Source of the DNA: Rossellomorea marisflavi
GTDB taxonomy: Bacteria > Bacillota > Bacilli > Bacillales > Bacillaceae_B
Direction: 5' to 3'
DNA: 64,000 nt
Assembly (NCBI RefSeq): GCF_022170785.1
Contig: NZ_CP081870.1
Span: 670,001-734,000 of the forward strand
How positions within the stretch are numbered: position 1 is the stretch's first letter; each line of letters begins with the position of its first letter. The notes under the pieces were generated by a model that was not told the origin of the DNA, did not search any database, and worked only from the letters and a program-made list of their open reading frames with translations. The translations under genes were made by a program, and so were the position numbers. Positions 58,981 to 64,000 of this stretch are shown piece by piece.

Positions 58981-59008
58981 TACAACTAAAGAGAATCCGA
59001 GGTGCACG

Positions 59009-59596
59009 ATGAATACCATCATCTATTTGATCAGACATGGCGATTCCCCGAAGACGGGAGAAGTCGAACGCCTCAGGGGGCTGAGCGAAAAAGGACAGGC
59101 AGACGCCGAACGGGTGACGGAGCTCCTGAAGGACGAGGGGATCGATGTATTCGTCTCCAGTCCGTATAAGCGGGCCGTCCTGACGATCAAGGAGCTGGCT
59201 ACCCTGTCTGGAAAGGACGTACTGCTCTATGAGGAATTGAAAGAAAGGATGTTTTCTTCCGGGGTGAACCGGATGGCTGATGCGGAGCTGTATCCCCTTC
59301 TTGAGAAGTCGTTCAAGAATCCTCATTACTCCCTGCCTGGTGCAGAATCGAATGCCGGTTGTCAGGTGCGGGCCGTTGAAATTATCAGAGAGCTATTGCT
59401 CCTTCATCAGGGCGGCAAAATCGCCGTCGGTACCCACGGGGCAGTGATGACGCTCATGATGCAGCACTTCGACGAGAGGGTTGGACTGGACTTCCTGCTG
59501 GGGACATCGAAGCCTGATATTTACAAACTGACCTTTGACGGGGAAGAGCTGATTGAGGTAGAGAGGTTGTGGGATCCCGTCCCACGTACAAGCTGA
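59009..59596 (+). CDS. Histidine phosphatase (phosphoglycerate mutase-like)
   Basis: The ATG at 59009 has GAGGTG upstream. 195 residues. Catalytic LIRHGDSP (RHG), FVSSPYKRAVLT and GTHGAVMTLMM (second His). Small-molecule phosphatase. Confidence 0.9.
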   Translation: MNTIIYLIRHGDSPKTGEVERLRGLSEKGQADAERVTELLKDEGIDVFVSSPYKRAVLTIKELATLSGKDVLLYEELKERMFSSGVNRMADAELYPLLEKSFKNPHYSLPGAESNAGCQVRAVEIIRELLLLHQGGKIAVGTHGAVMTLMMQHFDERVGLDFLLGTSKPDIYKLTFDGEELIEVERLWDPVPRTS

Positions 59597-59622
59597 GGTG
59601 GAGGACGCCTCGGTTTTTTTGT
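59590..59622 (+). terminator. Terminator after the phosphatase gene
   Basis: GCTGAGG / CCTCGG stem followed by TTTTTTT. Confidence 0.75.
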
Positions 59623-59709
59623 TTTTTCAGAGAGCCGGCGGCATTTCATCTGGATGAATTATGATACAATTTTCCATATGAAGAACGGTAGCGAAAGGGA
59701 GGATCCATC

Positions 59710-61785
59710 ATGAAATCATTGGAGCTTATCGACAAAGCGAGGTCGGGGGACCGGACTGTCCTGAGGGAGCATAGGTGGCTGCAGTACCTTTACCTGACGA
59801 GAGAGCAGCACATCAATCTGGAGCAGATCACCTCCCTTGAGAGGATGCCGGTGAACCCAGTCCTTCCTTATGTGGAACGTACCTTGCTCGTGCTGAATGA
59901 AATGGATCTGCCGGAGAAGGAGAAGGGAATCATCGAGGAAGTGCTGGTGTGGTCGGAAGTGGCCAAGGGCGGTACGAAGCATCAGCGGAACGTCTGGGGG
60001 AAGAAGGGCTTCCAGCTCGATATCCACAATATAGGATCAGCACAGATTTATGCGGCGGAGCAGATGAGTCTTCCTCTTCACCTGCGGGATCTGGAGCGGG
60101 AGGAGCTCCTCTACACCCTGATCCTGACCCATGGGCTGATCGGTCAATTTATCCGAGGAGAGGTGCGCTACAAGCAGCTGCACCCCCTCATTCAGTGGAT
60201 GGATGAGCACAATGGAATCGGTGTGGATATGGAAGTGGTCCTGAAGAAACTCAATCAGTGCATCATCCAGGGAGTGTCGAATGAGATTTGGGAAGTGGTG
60301 AAGGACGAAGCAGATCAGATTGTTTCTTTCCTGATCGACGGAGAACGTTCAGTGGAAATGACGCTGAAAGCAAGGATTGAGCGACTTCGCCGGTCTTCGA
60401 TTGAAAATGGCGAGAATGTCGACCGTGAGTATGACCGATATATGGCGGATGCCAGGTTGAACGGGTATGTGGAAAGCTTCTTCAAGAAGACCGATCTGTG
60501 GTACGTCGAATCCGCCCTGAAGGAATTTACATTGGAAGAGTTCCTGAAGATCTTCCTCTTGATCTATCAAAAGGTGAATCCCCTCTCCGTACAGCATGTG
60601 AGCTTCGAGGCGTTCATGAAAGACATCTACTATGATTACAAAGGCCGGAAAACCATCAATCTGTATAAAAAGAGGATCATAGAATCGTATCTCAAAGAAT
60701 TCTCCCTTGAAGATCTCCTTCATGGGGAGAAGCCGGTCAATGAGCATGTGGAGCTAGAGGCTGAGCCCATGGACCTCTTGGGTCAGATCATCGGGGTCCG
60801 ATTCCGATATTCGGCAGCAGGGGAGAAGCTGATCGAATTCTGTCAGGAAGCAGAAAAGTCCCCTCACTATGAGCGGGCGACGATCCTCCTGTATGATTTC
60901 TTCGGCTTCAGGAAGGATGCCTTCGATCGCCTGCAGAACGAACACACCTATCTGTCCGACATGAATAGCGGGCAGGATCATAAGCGCATTATTTCAGACT
61001 TTGCCACGGGAACGCTGATGCTCGACATCGGCGCGGGTGGTGGTGTCATGCTTGATGTGTTGTCGGATGATCACCCGGAAGCCAATGTGGTCGGAATCGA
61101 CGTCTCCACCAACGTCATCGAAGAACTGACGAGGAGGAAAAACCGAGAGAACAAGCGATGGACCGTGCAACAGGCCGATGCCCTCGAGCTGAGGGCCCAT
61201 TACGAGCCGGGGTCCGTCGACACCATCGTCTTCTCCTCGATCCTCCATGAAATGTTCTCGTATATCCCGTACGAGGGGAAGAAGTTCAATCATGACGTGA
61301 TCATCCAGGCGCTGAGAAGTTCGTTCGAAGTGCTCGGCGAAGGCGGCCGGATCATCATCAGGGACGGGATCATGACGGAGCCGAAGGATGCTTACCGCAC
61401 AATCGAATTCAAGGACGAAAACGGGCACGCATTCTTCAAGCGGTACGCCCATGATTTCAAGGGGAGGAAGCTGGATTACGAATTCCTCCAAGACGGAAGG
61501 ATCAAGCTCCCGGTCAATGATGCCATGGAATTCCTCTACACGTATACGTGGGGCGAAGAAGCCTATCCCCATGAAGTGCAGGAGCAATTCGGCTACTACA
61601 CGCCATCCGAGTTCAAGGGGGCCATCAAGGAAGCCTTGGGAGATGAGGCGAAAATCGTTGCGTTCAAGCATTATCTCCAGGACGGGTATGAGGAGTTCCT
61701 CGCTCCCAAGGTGACGGTGCGGGATGAGGCGGGGGTCGAGGAGCTGCCGGATAGTACGTGCTTCATAGTAGTTGAAAAGCATTAA
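59710..61785 (+). CDS. Large protein with helical N-terminal domain and C-terminal SAM methyltransferase
   Basis: 691 residues, GGGAGG upstream. Residues 1-430 are all helical with no motif I recognise. Residues 430-691 form a class I methyltransferase: GTLMLDIGAGGGVMLDVLS (motif I), VVGIDVSTNVIEEL, VQQADALEL, IVFSSILHEMFSYIP and LGEGGRIIIRDGIM. The long N-terminal part probably recognises the substrate. Last gene before the AT-rich block. Confidence 0.78.
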   Translation: MKSLELIDKARSGDRTVLREHRWLQYLYLTREQHINLEQITSLERMPVNPVLPYVERTLLVLNEMDLPEKEKGIIEEVLVWSEVAKGGTKHQRNVWGKKGFQLDIHNIGSAQIYAAEQMSLPLHLRDLEREELLYTLILTHGLIGQFIRGEVRYKQLHPLIQWMDEHNGIGVDMEVVLKKLNQCIIQGVSNEIWEVVKDEADQIVSFLIDGERSVEMTLKARIERLRRSSIENGENVDREYDRYMADARLNGYVESFFKKTDLWYVESALKEFTLEEFLKIFLLIYQKVNPLSVQHVSFEAFMKDIYYDYKGRKTINLYKKRIIESYLKEFSLEDLLHGEKPVNEHVELEAEPMDLLGQIIGVRFRYSAAGEKLIEFCQEAEKSPHYERATILLYDFFGFRKDAFDRLQNEHTYLSDMNSGQDHKRIISDFATGTLMLDIGAGGGVMLDVLSDDHPEANVVGIDVSTNVIEELTRRKNRENKRWTVQQADALELRAHYEPGSVDTIVFSSILHEMFSYIPYEGKKFNHDVIIQALRSSFEVLGEGGRIIIRDGIMTEPKDAYRTIEFKDENGHAFFKRYAHDFKGRKLDYEFLQDGRIKLPVNDAMEFLYTYTWGEEAYPHEVQEQFGYYTPSEFKGAIKEALGDEAKIVAFKHYLQDGYEEFLAPKVTVRDEAGVEELPDSTCFIVVEKH

Positions 61786-61829
61786 GCATCAAACATCAAC
61801 TCAAGCTAAAACCTTCCCTTAGGGGGACG

Positions 61830-61866
61830 TGGAGCTGTTGTCCTTAACTGGATAACAGCTTTTTTA
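61830..61866 (+). terminator. Terminator after the large methyltransferase
   Basis: AGCTGTTGTCC / GGATAACAGCT stem followed by TTTTTT. Marks the end of the normal-composition chromosome before the AT-rich cluster. Confidence 0.88.
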
Positions 61867-62010
61867 TTGAATTTTAATATTATATCCTTTGATGCATTAC
61901 TTTATTTCTCACTAGATAAAAAGTCTCTTGTTTCGGTAAAAATGGTCTATTTGAATTTTGAGTATATATTACTAATTTTTACATAAATAGGATTTTGTCC
62001 ATTTTTTAGA

Positions 62011-62038
62011 TTGATTTAGGATGATTATGTCTGATAAA
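62011..62038 (+). promoter_or_regulatory. Candidate promoter of the AT-rich peptide cluster
   Basis: TTGATT (62011-62016) and GATAAA (62033-62038) with 16 bases between; four of six matches in the -10. About 70 bp before the peptide gene. The rest of 61867-62061 is AT-rich with no gene. Confidence 0.4.
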
Positions 62039-62061
62039 GTTGTCAAAAGAGTAAGAAAATT

Positions 62062-62087
62062 AAATTTACTTGATAGACCCTGTTGAA
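62062..62087 (+). repeat. Left arm of an inverted repeat flanking the peptide gene
   Basis: 26 bases, 24 of which are complementary to 62316-62341; the 15-base core ATAGACCCTGTTGAA is perfect. The arm sits just ahead of the ribosome site of the peptide gene. Confidence 0.88.
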
Positions 62088-62109
62088 AAATAGAAGAGGA
62101 GAGATTGTG

Positions 62110-62268
62110 ATGAGTATGAAAGAATTAGAACAAAAATTGAGTGCGCTAAAAATAAATGAGAATATCGATATTGAAAATGGTACAACCCCATCGTTTGAGA
62201 AAAAAGGTGGAAACGGCATTAATCTTGATTTAACACTTCTTGGTGGTTCTAGACCACGTTTGAGTTAA
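62110..62268 (+). CDS. Candidate RiPP precursor peptide, 52 residues
   Basis: The ATG at 62110 has AGAGGAGAG six bases upstream. The N-terminal half is a charged amphipathic helix (MSMKELEQKLSALKINENID), leader-like. Then a Gly/Ser/Pro/Thr hinge (GTTPSFEKKGGNG), and a C-terminal candidate core INLDLTLLGGSRPRLS with two arginines and Gly-Gly. It has no cysteine. It is followed by a fold-III PLP enzyme and an arginase-family protein with an added N-terminal domain, so arginine-to-ornithine conversion in the core is a plausible modification. Function is inferred from size and context only. Confidence 0.6.
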   Translation: MSMKELEQKLSALKINENIDIENGTTPSFEKKGGNGINLDLTLLGGSRPRLS

Positions 62269-62315
62269 CGTCTACCCTAATACTATTGCCTTGAAAAAAA
62301 AATAAAAAATACTTA

Positions 62316-62341
62316 TTCAACAGGGTCTATGAGGTAAATTT
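62316..62341 (-). repeat. Right arm of the inverted repeat flanking the peptide gene
   Basis: Inverted partner of 62062-62087 (core TTCAACAGGGTCTAT). It ends 22 bases before the ATG of the PLP enzyme. Together the arms enclose a 280-bp unit with only the peptide gene inside. No target duplication is obvious outside. Confidence 0.88.
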
Positions 62342-62363
62342 TATGTAACGGGGAGGCCATATT

Positions 62364-63569
62364 ATGGTGATAAACGGTAGAAATGCGATTGAGCCTTTAT
62401 ATTCTCAGCCGCCTAAAAGCCTTTTTACATTATCAAGATCCATTGGCACACCAGCTATCATATATGATCAGGTTGGTATGAAGGATGTAGTCAATCGCAT
62501 GCAGGAAGACTTCAGTCTATTATCTAACGCTAAATTAAATCTAGCGGTTAAGGCTATCCACACCCCAGAGTTGCTTCGCCTTTATGCAGAGTGGGGGTTG
62601 GGGTGTGATGTGGCTAGTATAGGGGAATATGAATTAGCAAAAAAGGCAGGATTTTCAGAAATTACAACTACAAATCCAGCATACAGTGAGAAAGATATGG
62701 GCTTTTTTCATGACGAAGACGTAGTGCTAGATCTTGATTCTCAATCACAAGTGAAGAGTTATGGAAGCTTGTATCCCGGAACAGAGATTGGATTGCGTAT
62801 CAGGATCCCTCTCCCTCCAGAACTCGAATCGAACGCCACTTTTGGAAATGACAGTAGATTTGGAATTGACATTTTACAGCCGGGACTAAATGAAATACTC
62901 GAGAAATACAATCTTTCAGTTACACGTTTACATGTACATACAGGTCAGATGACTCCGGAGTCCCTACTATTTAAAGCAGATTACTTACTTGCAATTGCGG
63001 AAGTTTTTGAGGATGTCCATACAATCGACTTCGGTGGAGGGCTTTTCCATTTTTATATAAGTAGAGAAAAGGCAAGGAAGTCACTGACGATGGTAAATGG
63101 AAAAATAAAAGAGTGGGTGAGAAAAAACAAGCGTACCCTAATGACAAGATTCGAACCAGGGGGAGCTCTTCTTGCTGGATGCGGTTACCTAGTATCAACT
63201 ATTGTAGCGAACGAATTTCATTCCCATTTCAACTCAAGAATCGTGACAGTTGATGCATCTGCATGGAACTTGGCTCCTTGGCATAAGCCCGAAGTCATGA
63301 TTCTAGGAGATAACAATGATAAAAGAATTCAGGAGAATAAAGCTCTTATTGCTGGTAATACGCTCTATGAAGGTGATTTTTTTGGGAAGCAAGGGAATGG
63401 CCAGTTGACGTATTTTGATCTAGATGACCCACACATCGGTGAAAAGATATTGTTCACAGCTTCCGGAGCATATACGATGACTAATTCTCGACGCTTCAAT
63501 CGCCTACCATTACCAAAGGAATACCTCTTAAATGATGATGATTTAAAACAGGTGGGGGTACTGCAATGA
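62364..63569 (+). CDS. Divergent fold-III PLP enzyme, DAP/ornithine decarboxylase-like
   Basis: 401 residues after GGGGAGG. Alanine-racemase/decarboxylase fold: PLP-lysine in LNLAVKAIHTPELL, WGLGCDVASIGEYELAKKAG, VHTGQ, TIDFGGGLFHFY and the C-terminal GAYTMTNSRRFNRLPLP with a conserved Tyr. Two changes from the usual decarboxylases: EPGR is EPGG, and the GPxCESGD segment with the catalytic Cys reads GNTLYEGD. The reaction may therefore differ (epimerisation, or decarboxylation of an unusual or peptide-bound substrate). AT-rich codon use; ATGA overlap with the next gene. Confidence 0.8.
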   Translation: MVINGRNAIEPLYSQPPKSLFTLSRSIGTPAIIYDQVGMKDVVNRMQEDFSLLSNAKLNLAVKAIHTPELLRLYAEWGLGCDVASIGEYELAKKAGFSEITTTNPAYSEKDMGFFHDEDVVLDLDSQSQVKSYGSLYPGTEIGLRIRIPLPPELESNATFGNDSRFGIDILQPGLNEILEKYNLSVTRLHVHTGQMTPESLLFKADYLLAIAEVFEDVHTIDFGGGLFHFYISREKARKSLTMVNGKIKEWVRKNKRTLMTRFEPGGALLAGCGYLVSTIVANEFHSHFNSRIVTVDASAWNLAPWHKPEVMILGDNNDKRIQENKALIAGNTLYEGDFFGKQGNGQLTYFDLDDPHIGEKILFTASGAYTMTNSRRFNRLPLPKEYLLNDDDLKQVGVLQ

Positions 63570-64000
63570 AAGAGCTATATAAAATAAAGGACTCGTTAGT
63601 ACTATTCGATGAACAGTCTTCCTTAACTCTTTGGGATCCAAAGGAGGGATGGGAGTTAAAGCTGGAAGCCCATATGATTGATTTCCTAAAGGCGTTTGCC
63701 ATTCCTGCCACGAAGGAAGCGGCCTATCGGTCTATAGCTACGTCCTATAATGTTAACGAGCAGTTTTTTGAGGATATCGTAGCGTCTTTCCTCTCCCAAA
63801 AATTAATTGAACCTGTTTCTGGAGCAGGGAAAACAAATAAACCAAATCTGCAAATCGGGATGTTTAGGACCCCCATTATATCACTTAAAGAATGTTTAAT
63901 GGGTGAAGGAACAAACATCGCTTTTTTAGGTATGCCATATGATTTGAATGTTACTTATCGACCAGGAGCTCGATTTGCACCAAGTTATCTTAGGAAGGTA
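63566..64000 (+). CDS. Arginase/agmatinase-family protein with extra N-terminal domain (cut by window end)
   Basis: 145 residues are visible. Residues 1-90 form a small mixed strand/helix unit (LYKIKDSLVLFDEQSSLTLW ... FFEDIVASFLSQKLIE) like the winged-helix PqqD/RRE or effector domains found in RiPP enzymes. From about 120, FLGMPYDLNVTYRPGARFAPSYLRK is the ureohydrolase opening (GxPxDxxxtYRPGaRFgP). The metal-binding His/Asp motifs lie beyond the window. Likely releases urea from an arginine side chain, possibly in the peptide at 62110. Confidence 0.8.
   Translation, partial: MKELYKIKDSLVLFDEQSSLTLWDPKEGWELKLEAHMIDFLKAFAIPATKEAAYRSIATSYNVNEQFFEDIVASFLSQKLIEPVSGAGKTNKPNLQIGMFRTPIISLKECLMGEGTNIAFLGMPYDLNVTYRPGARFAPSYLRKV

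Follow-up and report, generated by a model that had tools for sequence, protein, structure and literature searches.

A candidate peptide-modifying operon with an arginase and three pyridoxal-phosphate enzymes in Rossellomorea marisflavi

The operon and its precursor peptide

A 64,000-nucleotide stretch of the Rossellomorea marisflavi genome (contig NZ_CP081870.1; G000:C1:670001-734000, hereafter the window) was found to contain, close to its end, the start of an eight-gene operon that very probably encodes a system for a ribosomally synthesised and post-translationally modified peptide (RiPP). The operon begins at position 62110 with all genes on the + strand; the window ends within the third gene and the operon runs on, in the locus L002, whose coordinates are those of the window minus 61500. 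The first gene (62110..62268; L002:610-768) encodes the precursor peptide, opens with the first ATG behind a GGAG ribosome-binding site and has homologues at all nine loci described below. It is followed by PLP1 (62364..63569; L002:864-2069), a pyridoxal-phosphate (PLP) enzyme matching PF02784 (E = 1.9e-17), and by an arginase of 408 residues (63566..64792; L002:2066-3292; PF00491, E = 1.5e-54) with an N-terminal unit resembling PqqD and the RiPP recognition element (RRE). Beyond these lie PLP2, a second decarboxylase that also matches PF02784 (L002:3255-4442), a divergent cystathionine-gamma-synthase-like (CGS-like) PLP enzyme (L002:4372-5865), an ABC ATPase in which the Pfam scan found no peptidase domain (L002:5879-6838), an ABC permease (L002:6744-7598) and a GNAT acetyltransferase (L002:7611-8486). 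From PLP1 onward, neighbouring genes overlap or nearly abut.

An original prediction, made from the letters of the window, had read a peptide gene, a PLP enzyme and an arginase in an AT-rich block as a peptide pathway. All three were recovered as linked open reading frames (ORFs), and the AT-rich block was borne out: GC content is 31-42% from about 61,750 against 46-56% in 500-base windows over 59,000-61,749, and remains at 36-41% up to about L002:8500, with higher-GC neighbours on either side. This low-GC block resembles acquired DNA. The presence of a PLP enzyme in the pathway stood, but the number of such enzymes is three rather than one. The sequence past 64000 does not encode polyamine or arginine catabolism but the second decarboxylase, the CGS-like enzyme, an ABC exporter and the GNAT protein. 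None of five proteins had a match in PADLOC, leaving a defence-system reading without support.

Relatives were collected through the CGS-like gene (the Mammaliicoccus sciuri locus also through PLP1) and never through the peptide. Nine distinct arginase-bearing loci were obtained, namely that of the window (L002) and those of Bacillus sp. RO3 (G024; L016/L024), Lysinibacillus sphaericus SDF0037 (G842; L025/L055, its upstream side cut off by a contig end), M. sciuri plasmid pWHA07 (L013), G848 (L056), G176 (L020), G313 (L021), G795 (L059) and G473 (L026). They correspond to about seven independent loci, G176, G313 and G795 being near-copies (arginases 93% identical; PLP2 of G313 and G795 identical). 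PLP1, the arginase, PLP2 and the CGS-like enzyme are present in all nine, in the order of the window except in G473, where the CGS-like gene stands before PLP2. An ABC ATPase and permease like those of the window occur in five of the nine; the other four (G176, G313, G795 and G473) appear by eye to carry a one-piece ABC protein of 538-561 residues instead. A window-like GNAT gene was detected by tblastn in seven of the nine, and G473 has, by eye, a shorter GNAT-like ORF.

A short precursor ORF lies upstream of PLP1 in all nine loci, and the predicted trio thus recurs with a recognisable precursor, the conserved small gene, in eight loci besides the window. The window peptide has 52 residues from the first ATG (62110), or 50 from the ATG at 62116, which aligns with the start of the precursor in Bacillus sp. 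RO3; its leader contains NLDLTLLGG and is followed by SRPRLS. The motif LDLxx[LM]GGSR occurs in 18 copies across the nine loci, of which one is truncated at the end of a contig. Seventeen copies read GGSRPR and that of G473 reads GGSRIDKDRL, so that GGSRPR is found in eight of the nine loci. The tails behind SRPR vary (none, R, VH, VN, LS, LK, HTAN or GDLQQF). Single copies are present in the window, RO3, G848, M. sciuri and G473, two in L. sphaericus, three in G176 and four each in G313 and G795. In the last three, near-identical genes for 25-27 residues form tandem arrays (L020:3711-4053, L021:13458-13930 and L059:12473-12948), as would be expected of a product gene; one tandem variant stops exactly at SRPR, which suggests that the tail past SRPR is dispensable. 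Because the motif served to pick the copies, each copy necessarily contains it; no such selection explains why a precursor stands before PLP1 in every one of nine loci that were chosen through other genes. Moreover, when codons were compared over 11 positions in the seven loci other than G313 and G795, the codons that differed mostly kept the amino acid in 17 of 21 pairs (kept against changed, 9 to 1 for window and RO3, 9 to 0 for RO3 and G848), although the fixed letters of the motif favour such conservation. The other four pairs were L. sphaericus with M. sciuri (2 to 4) and with G473 (3 to 3), and M. sciuri with G848 and with G473 (3 to 4 each).

These data bear on the simplest alternative, namely ordinary breakdown of arginine or polyamines by an arginase and an ornithine decarboxylase, beside a chance small ORF. 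The enzyme families do occur in such pathways, but a precursor that accompanies all nine loci and is tandem in some, a CGS-like enzyme, exporter and GNAT gene in the same operon, and decarboxylases and an arginase that fall below the cut-off of every NCBIfam model they matched make this explanation almost certainly wrong.

Arginase, decarboxylases and CGS-like enzyme

The PF00491 match was found in all seven arginases scanned, and the metal-ligand motifs GGDHS, DAHxD and DxD are intact in all seven aligned. None of the seven matched PF12640 significantly, one member reaching E = 0.11. The prediction of a ureohydrolase with a leader-binding-type N-terminus held for the enzyme and, to a moderate degree, for the N-terminal unit. 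In a single hhalign comparison, a profile built from residues 1-92 of six sequences, without that of G473, matched the PqqD family PF05402 (a profile of 23 of 27 PF05402 matches) at 70.2% over 64 columns (E = 4e-5), against 0.1-3.1% for 20 column shuffles and 0.2-0.9% for four unrelated profiles. By single-sequence scan the arginase N-terminus had no Pfam PqqD match, and no PF05402 match was found in the R. marisflavi genome itself or in G024. The resemblance to PqqD and RREs is thus moderate and not conclusive.

PLP1 is an enzyme of the alanine-racemase fold (fold III) and diaminopimelate-decarboxylase-like. It had been described as altered, and this proved correct: the Schiff-base lysine is retained (VKAIHTP), and leucine replaces the usual catalytic cysteine (GNTLYEGD) in all nine loci. 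PLP2 keeps the decarboxylase cysteine in a C-x-x-x-D motif (GNTCYEKD), again in 9/9. The nearest solved sequences to both are diaminopimelate decarboxylases, with BtrK also listed. In a tree including the LysA of the genome, PLP1 forms one group (support 86/88), whilst PLP2 and four single decarboxylases of loci without arginase form a second (88/96); both groups have moderate support, and the tree contains several long branches. Each of the nine arginase loci carries the PLP1 and PLP2 pair, and arginase-less loci have at most one decarboxylase. In ornithine decarboxylase, an enzyme of this fold, the active-site cysteine is supplied by the partner subunit, and PLP1 may similarly complete an active site shared with PLP2.

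The constant pairing of a cysteine-less PLP1 with PLP2 beside the arginase would also suit a non-standard reaction, in which ornithine is formed and the PLP enzymes then act directly on its delta-amine by transamination, oxidative deamination or ring closure. We regard this as rather unlikely. PLP2 retains the decarboxylase motif, and decarboxylases of the alanine-racemase fold need an alpha-amino-acid group, which neither an internal peptide residue nor the side chain of a peptidyl ornithine possesses; moreover, the profile and fold matches of the CGS-like enzyme, given next, are mainly to gamma-enzymes of cysteine and methionine metabolism.

All ten CGS-like members keep the PLP (Schiff-base) lysine. 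PF01053 matches four of the ten at E up to 10, the best at 2.9e-6. When a 10-row profile was searched against the PDB, cystathionine and methionine gamma-lyases followed the best match (considered below) at E = 5.4e-5 to 0.049, and the last two rows (E = 0.6-0.75) were taken as chance; a 3-row profile had no PDB match. Foldseek placed O-acetylhomoserine sulfhydrylase and methionine gamma-lyases at the top and Fub7 at rank 8, with TM scores of 0.2-0.3. Ornithine aminotransferases were also among these matches, a point in favour of direct chemistry on ornithine, but the AlphaFold model used as query, built from a two-row alignment, is poor (mean pLDDT 46), and Foldseek lends weak support in either direction.

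Relatives without arginase and upstream elements

Six further CGS-bearing loci were without arginase by tblastn of the stretches examined (L014, L015, L027, L057, L058 and L060, of which L027 and L058 are close to the ends of their contigs), and none of the six shows a GGSR precursor. Three of them (L027:6532-11319, L058:532-5413 and L057:5328-10202) contain small ORFs ending in ...LEVVDKVY, ...INLVDKVY and ...MLIPDKVC, respectively, with lysine present and arginine absent in these C-termini. Their decarboxylase is nearer to PLP2 than to PLP1, and an MFS-type transporter was recognised by eye. The association of arginine peptides with an arginase, and of lysine peptides with its absence, is like the operon, the precursor and the catalytic motifs an observation from the sequences, although for lysine it comes from three loci and from chosen small ORFs; since the peptides pair in this way, the substrate that they share may be a primary amine. 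The CGS-like enzyme and one decarboxylase thus form a module, to which an arginase and a second decarboxylase are added where the peptide offers GGSRPR.

In two of the six loci, both on plasmids, a ThiF enzyme is accompanied by a CGS-like enzyme and a fold-III decarboxylase (L015:4303-12544 in Enterococcus faecalis and L014:5376-11229 in Lactococcus lactis); these loci possibly encode microcin-C-like RiPPs modified by PLP enzymes. The combination of ThiF and PLP enzymes is partly in print, because passages of PMC12250964 note that ThiF-like genes in Enterococcus and Streptococcus have decarboxylases, N-acetyltransferases and PLP-dependent enzymes in their vicinity. The pair of CGS-like enzyme and decarboxylase thus stands beside three different precursor types, which suggests that it acts on peptides. 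This speaks against the PLP enzymes making a free diamine or amino-acid block that is attached to, or accompanies, the peptide, the arginase alone acting on the latter. Such a role would be in keeping with the closeness of both decarboxylases to enzymes acting on free amino acids such as diaminopimelate and ornithine, but the window operon yielded no recognisable ligase or ATP-grasp domain that could attach such a block, and we consider it unlikely.

The remaining locus, L060, is a second, partial CGS match in G795 with no arginase or decarboxylase match nearby. FAD/NAD oxidoreductases are also encoded in L027 and L058. The CGS-like gene of L057 is divided between two ORFs, and a flavoprotein of the EpiD family (PF02441) lies near the peptide ending in cysteine, hinting at a decarboxylation of the C-terminal cysteine of the peptide.

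With the CGS-like protein or the 3-row profile, matches were found in 2/36 genomes of the genus (its own and G024), 3/397 of a draw from the order (its own, G176 and G313), 3/398 of a draw from the class (its own, G473 and G593) and 3/72,556 plasmid records. The 3-row profile found two loci among genome contigs, those of Bacillus sp. RO3 and L. sphaericus SDF0037, whilst a single arginase sequence as query found no relative among genome contigs; the viral contigs searched gave none. A 7-row profile matched 9/41 genomes in the family of G176 (three full-length) and 16/261 in that of G473 (five strong). The rest, 6 of the 9 and 11 of the 16, were weak partial matches (E = 6e-6 to 9e-4) covering profile columns 85-246 only, and were taken as ordinary cysteine or methionine enzymes. 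A 2-row profile of the arginase-less kind matched 4/398 class-draw genomes, none of them with a new full-length member; one weak match was G461.

An imperfect inverted repeat encloses the precursor gene of the window, its left arm at 62062..62087 and its right arm at 62316..62341, between precursor and PLP1 (score 22). Repeats of 25-29 bp are present in the window, RO3 and G848, where 0/100 shuffles reached the score at each locus, and a weaker one in M. sciuri (1/100). The spacing is alike in the window, RO3 and G848, and the arms differ in sequence yet remain complementary; support for these repeats comes from the shuffles, as an alignment did not line up the G848 arms. No significant repeat was found in L025, L020, L021 and L026 (20 shuffles each) or in five arginase-less loci. 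The repeat is perhaps an mRNA stem isolating the precursor message, or a pair of operator sites; a search of 61786-62420 against Rfam gave nothing up to E = 1. A transposon-like origin is possible, although a mobile element is not our first choice, given that the genome holds no other copy of the repeat and that repeats of different sequence occupy a similar position elsewhere.

Three of the nine operons have an HTH-TPR or Rgg_C-type regulator immediately upstream (L016:12684-13916, + strand, in RO3; L026:3941-5233, - strand, in G473; L056:1830-2705, + strand, in G848). Regulators of this class sense short peptides, and the precursor could mainly be a signal (pheromone) for an adjacent Rgg/RRNPP-type regulator, with the modified SRPR fragment as its ligand; the very short core and an ABC ATPase without peptidase domain would agree with this. 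However, no such regulator was seen beside the window copy or in the flanks of the other loci, which were inspected by eye and not by profile search and of which that of L. sphaericus is cut off on the upstream side, and the tandem precursors and the GNAT protein fit a secreted product equally. We therefore hold a mainly signalling peptide to be very unlikely; a signal role would in any case not exclude the chemistry proposed below.

A proposed pathway and its relation to known systems

The best overall explanation, which we judge about evenly poised between right and wrong, is a new kind of RiPP system in which an arginase is followed by a CGS-type transfer and then by decarboxylation. The RRE-like unit of the arginase would probably bind the LDLxxLGG strand of the precursor, and the enzyme would hydrolyse the side chains of the core arginines (SRPR) to ornithine, a conversion that we regard as likely. 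The arginase would be needed because arginine has no free amine, which ornithine formation would supply. The CGS-like enzyme would then catalyse a gamma-replacement, transferring a 3-amino-3-carboxypropyl group from O-acyl-homoserine or S-adenosylmethionine (SAM) onto the side-chain amine. Such a transfer fits the need of the decarboxylases, since it would create an alpha-amino-acid head. PLP2, acting either by itself or in a heterodimer with the cysteine-less PLP1, would remove CO2 to leave N-delta-(3-aminopropyl)ornithine. The peptide would then bear a polyamine side chain resembling a shortened deoxyhypusine. The ABC exporter would send the product out and the GNAT protein would acetylate an amine, either for self-protection or as the last step. 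Lysine would be used directly as the primary amine in the arginase-less relatives, and in those with ThiF the group may be placed on a phosphate, as it is in microcin C. For aminopropylation of a peptide side chain as such, we see roughly equal chances for and against. More tentatively, and on balance doubtfully, the CGS-like enzyme and decarboxylases may constitute a PLP-only module that writes polyamine side chains on ribosomal peptides, at lysine or, through an RRE-fused arginase, at ornithine, possibly in repeated rounds and with PLP1 contributing, as partner subunit, to a composite active site.

Several observations weigh against this pathway. It needs one decarboxylase and the operon has two, and the absent cysteine of PLP1 could mean another reaction. 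Gamma-replacement is attributed to highly divergent CGS-like proteins by family: the window protein has no match in Pfam or NCBIfam (E up to 0.1) or in PHROGs, and the best PDB match of the 10-row profile is a chain named L-alanine/L-glutamate racemase (E = 4.6e-6). With regard to the arginase, two ThiF N-termini intended as a positive control in the hhalign comparison reached 2.7% with PqqD and 0.4% with the arginase N-terminus, and the N-terminus in G473 is hard to align. The AlphaFold model of the arginase (two-row alignment) is, like that of the CGS-like enzyme, poor (mean pLDDT 49), and the two models resolve neither the RRE fold nor the active sites. The G473 precursor keeps only the first arginine of SRPR in place. 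No leader peptidase was recognised among the window operon proteins, and tblastn found no GNAT gene in G848 and none like that of the window in G473. The short ORFs of L015 and L014 end in SVERT and MRVRT, with arginine near the C-terminus, no lysine and no arginase at the locus; the E. faecalis decarboxylase has its cysteine displaced by one (GNTSCPGD), and that of Lactococcus is in two ORFs, has by eye no cysteine at the motif and is nearer to PLP1 than to PLP2. The chemistry of each step, the sequence in which the steps occur, the cleavage site at GG and the function given to PLP1 are what we infer from comparison of sequences. For the trio itself, the reading as a peptide pathway is supported: a plain catabolic operon, an unconserved small gene and an N-terminal domain unrelated to RREs had been named as counter-evidence, and none of these came true, the resemblance of the N-terminal unit to RREs being moderate.

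Parts of the proposed pathway have counterparts in known systems. OspR-type peptide arginases (landornamide, FlmR, OhkR, PbsE; PF12640) convert arginine to ornithine in RiPP operons, as described in PMC12703449. The window operon likewise has an enzyme of the arginase superfamily from which ornithine is expected at core arginines, but it differs in its family (PF00491), the additional RRE-like N-terminus, the precursor type and the PLP enzymes around the arginase. KgrD of enteropeptin biosynthesis belongs to PF00491 and is described as needing thiomorpholine (PMC12703449). It shares the arginase family and a RiPP pathway with the present system, whereas the thiomorpholine-forming enzyme and N-methyltransferase of enteropeptin were not recognised among the window operon proteins. 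The main text of PMC12703449, by word search, makes no mention of PLP, pyridoxal, decarboxylase, RRE or cystathionine.

Microcin C acquires a 3-amino-3-carboxypropyl group that MccE, a PLP enzyme of the alanine-racemase fold, then decarboxylates (PMC7857480, PMC12250964), and MccD is described as a SAM-using enzyme of the class I methyltransferase type (PMC12250964). By contrast, the transfer proposed here would be made by a CGS-like PLP enzyme and onto a side-chain amine, not a phosphate, and the window operon has no ThiF (MccB-type) gene, which is present in the distant relatives L014 and L015. What would be shared is an aminocarboxypropyl transfer with an alanine-racemase-fold decarboxylase (PF02784) and a GNAT domain, which in MccE is C-terminal; MccE was compared by description only. 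A CGS-like gamma-substitution followed by a decarboxylase would also resemble LolC and LolD of loline alkaloid biosynthesis, the latter an ornithine-decarboxylase-like enzyme that acts after LolC. LolC is believed to catalyse a PLP-dependent gamma-substitution in which proline is the nucleophile (PMC10367076, PMC4274035). These enzymes differ in being fungal and in working with free proline and no peptide.

Aminoalkyl chains on side-chain amines of ribosomal proteins occur in the deoxyhypusine of eIF5A and the polyamine-lysines of diatom silaffins; hypusine takes its aminobutyl group from spermidine and is found in eukaryotic or archaeal proteins. The enzymes in both cases are different from those discussed here. 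To our knowledge, enzymes of the decarboxylase and gamma-synthase types have not been known to act on RiPP side chains. No description of a RiPP pathway with an arginase and PLP enzymes was found in open-access papers, subscription papers and preprints lying outside this search, and open-access full texts contained no mention of GGSRPR, SRPRLS or LGGSRPR.

If the proposed pathway is correct, these operons would represent a RiPP class with three PLP enzymes, and a bacterial route for attaching polyamine-like chains to peptides, the counterpart of deoxyhypusine and of the silaffin lysines. The contrast between arginine peptides with an arginase and lysine peptides without one, together with precursors of 25-27 residues and a small number of enzymes, makes the hypothesis directly testable. 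Moreover, an arginase with a built-in leader-binding unit would, if confirmed, be a useful tool for peptide editing.

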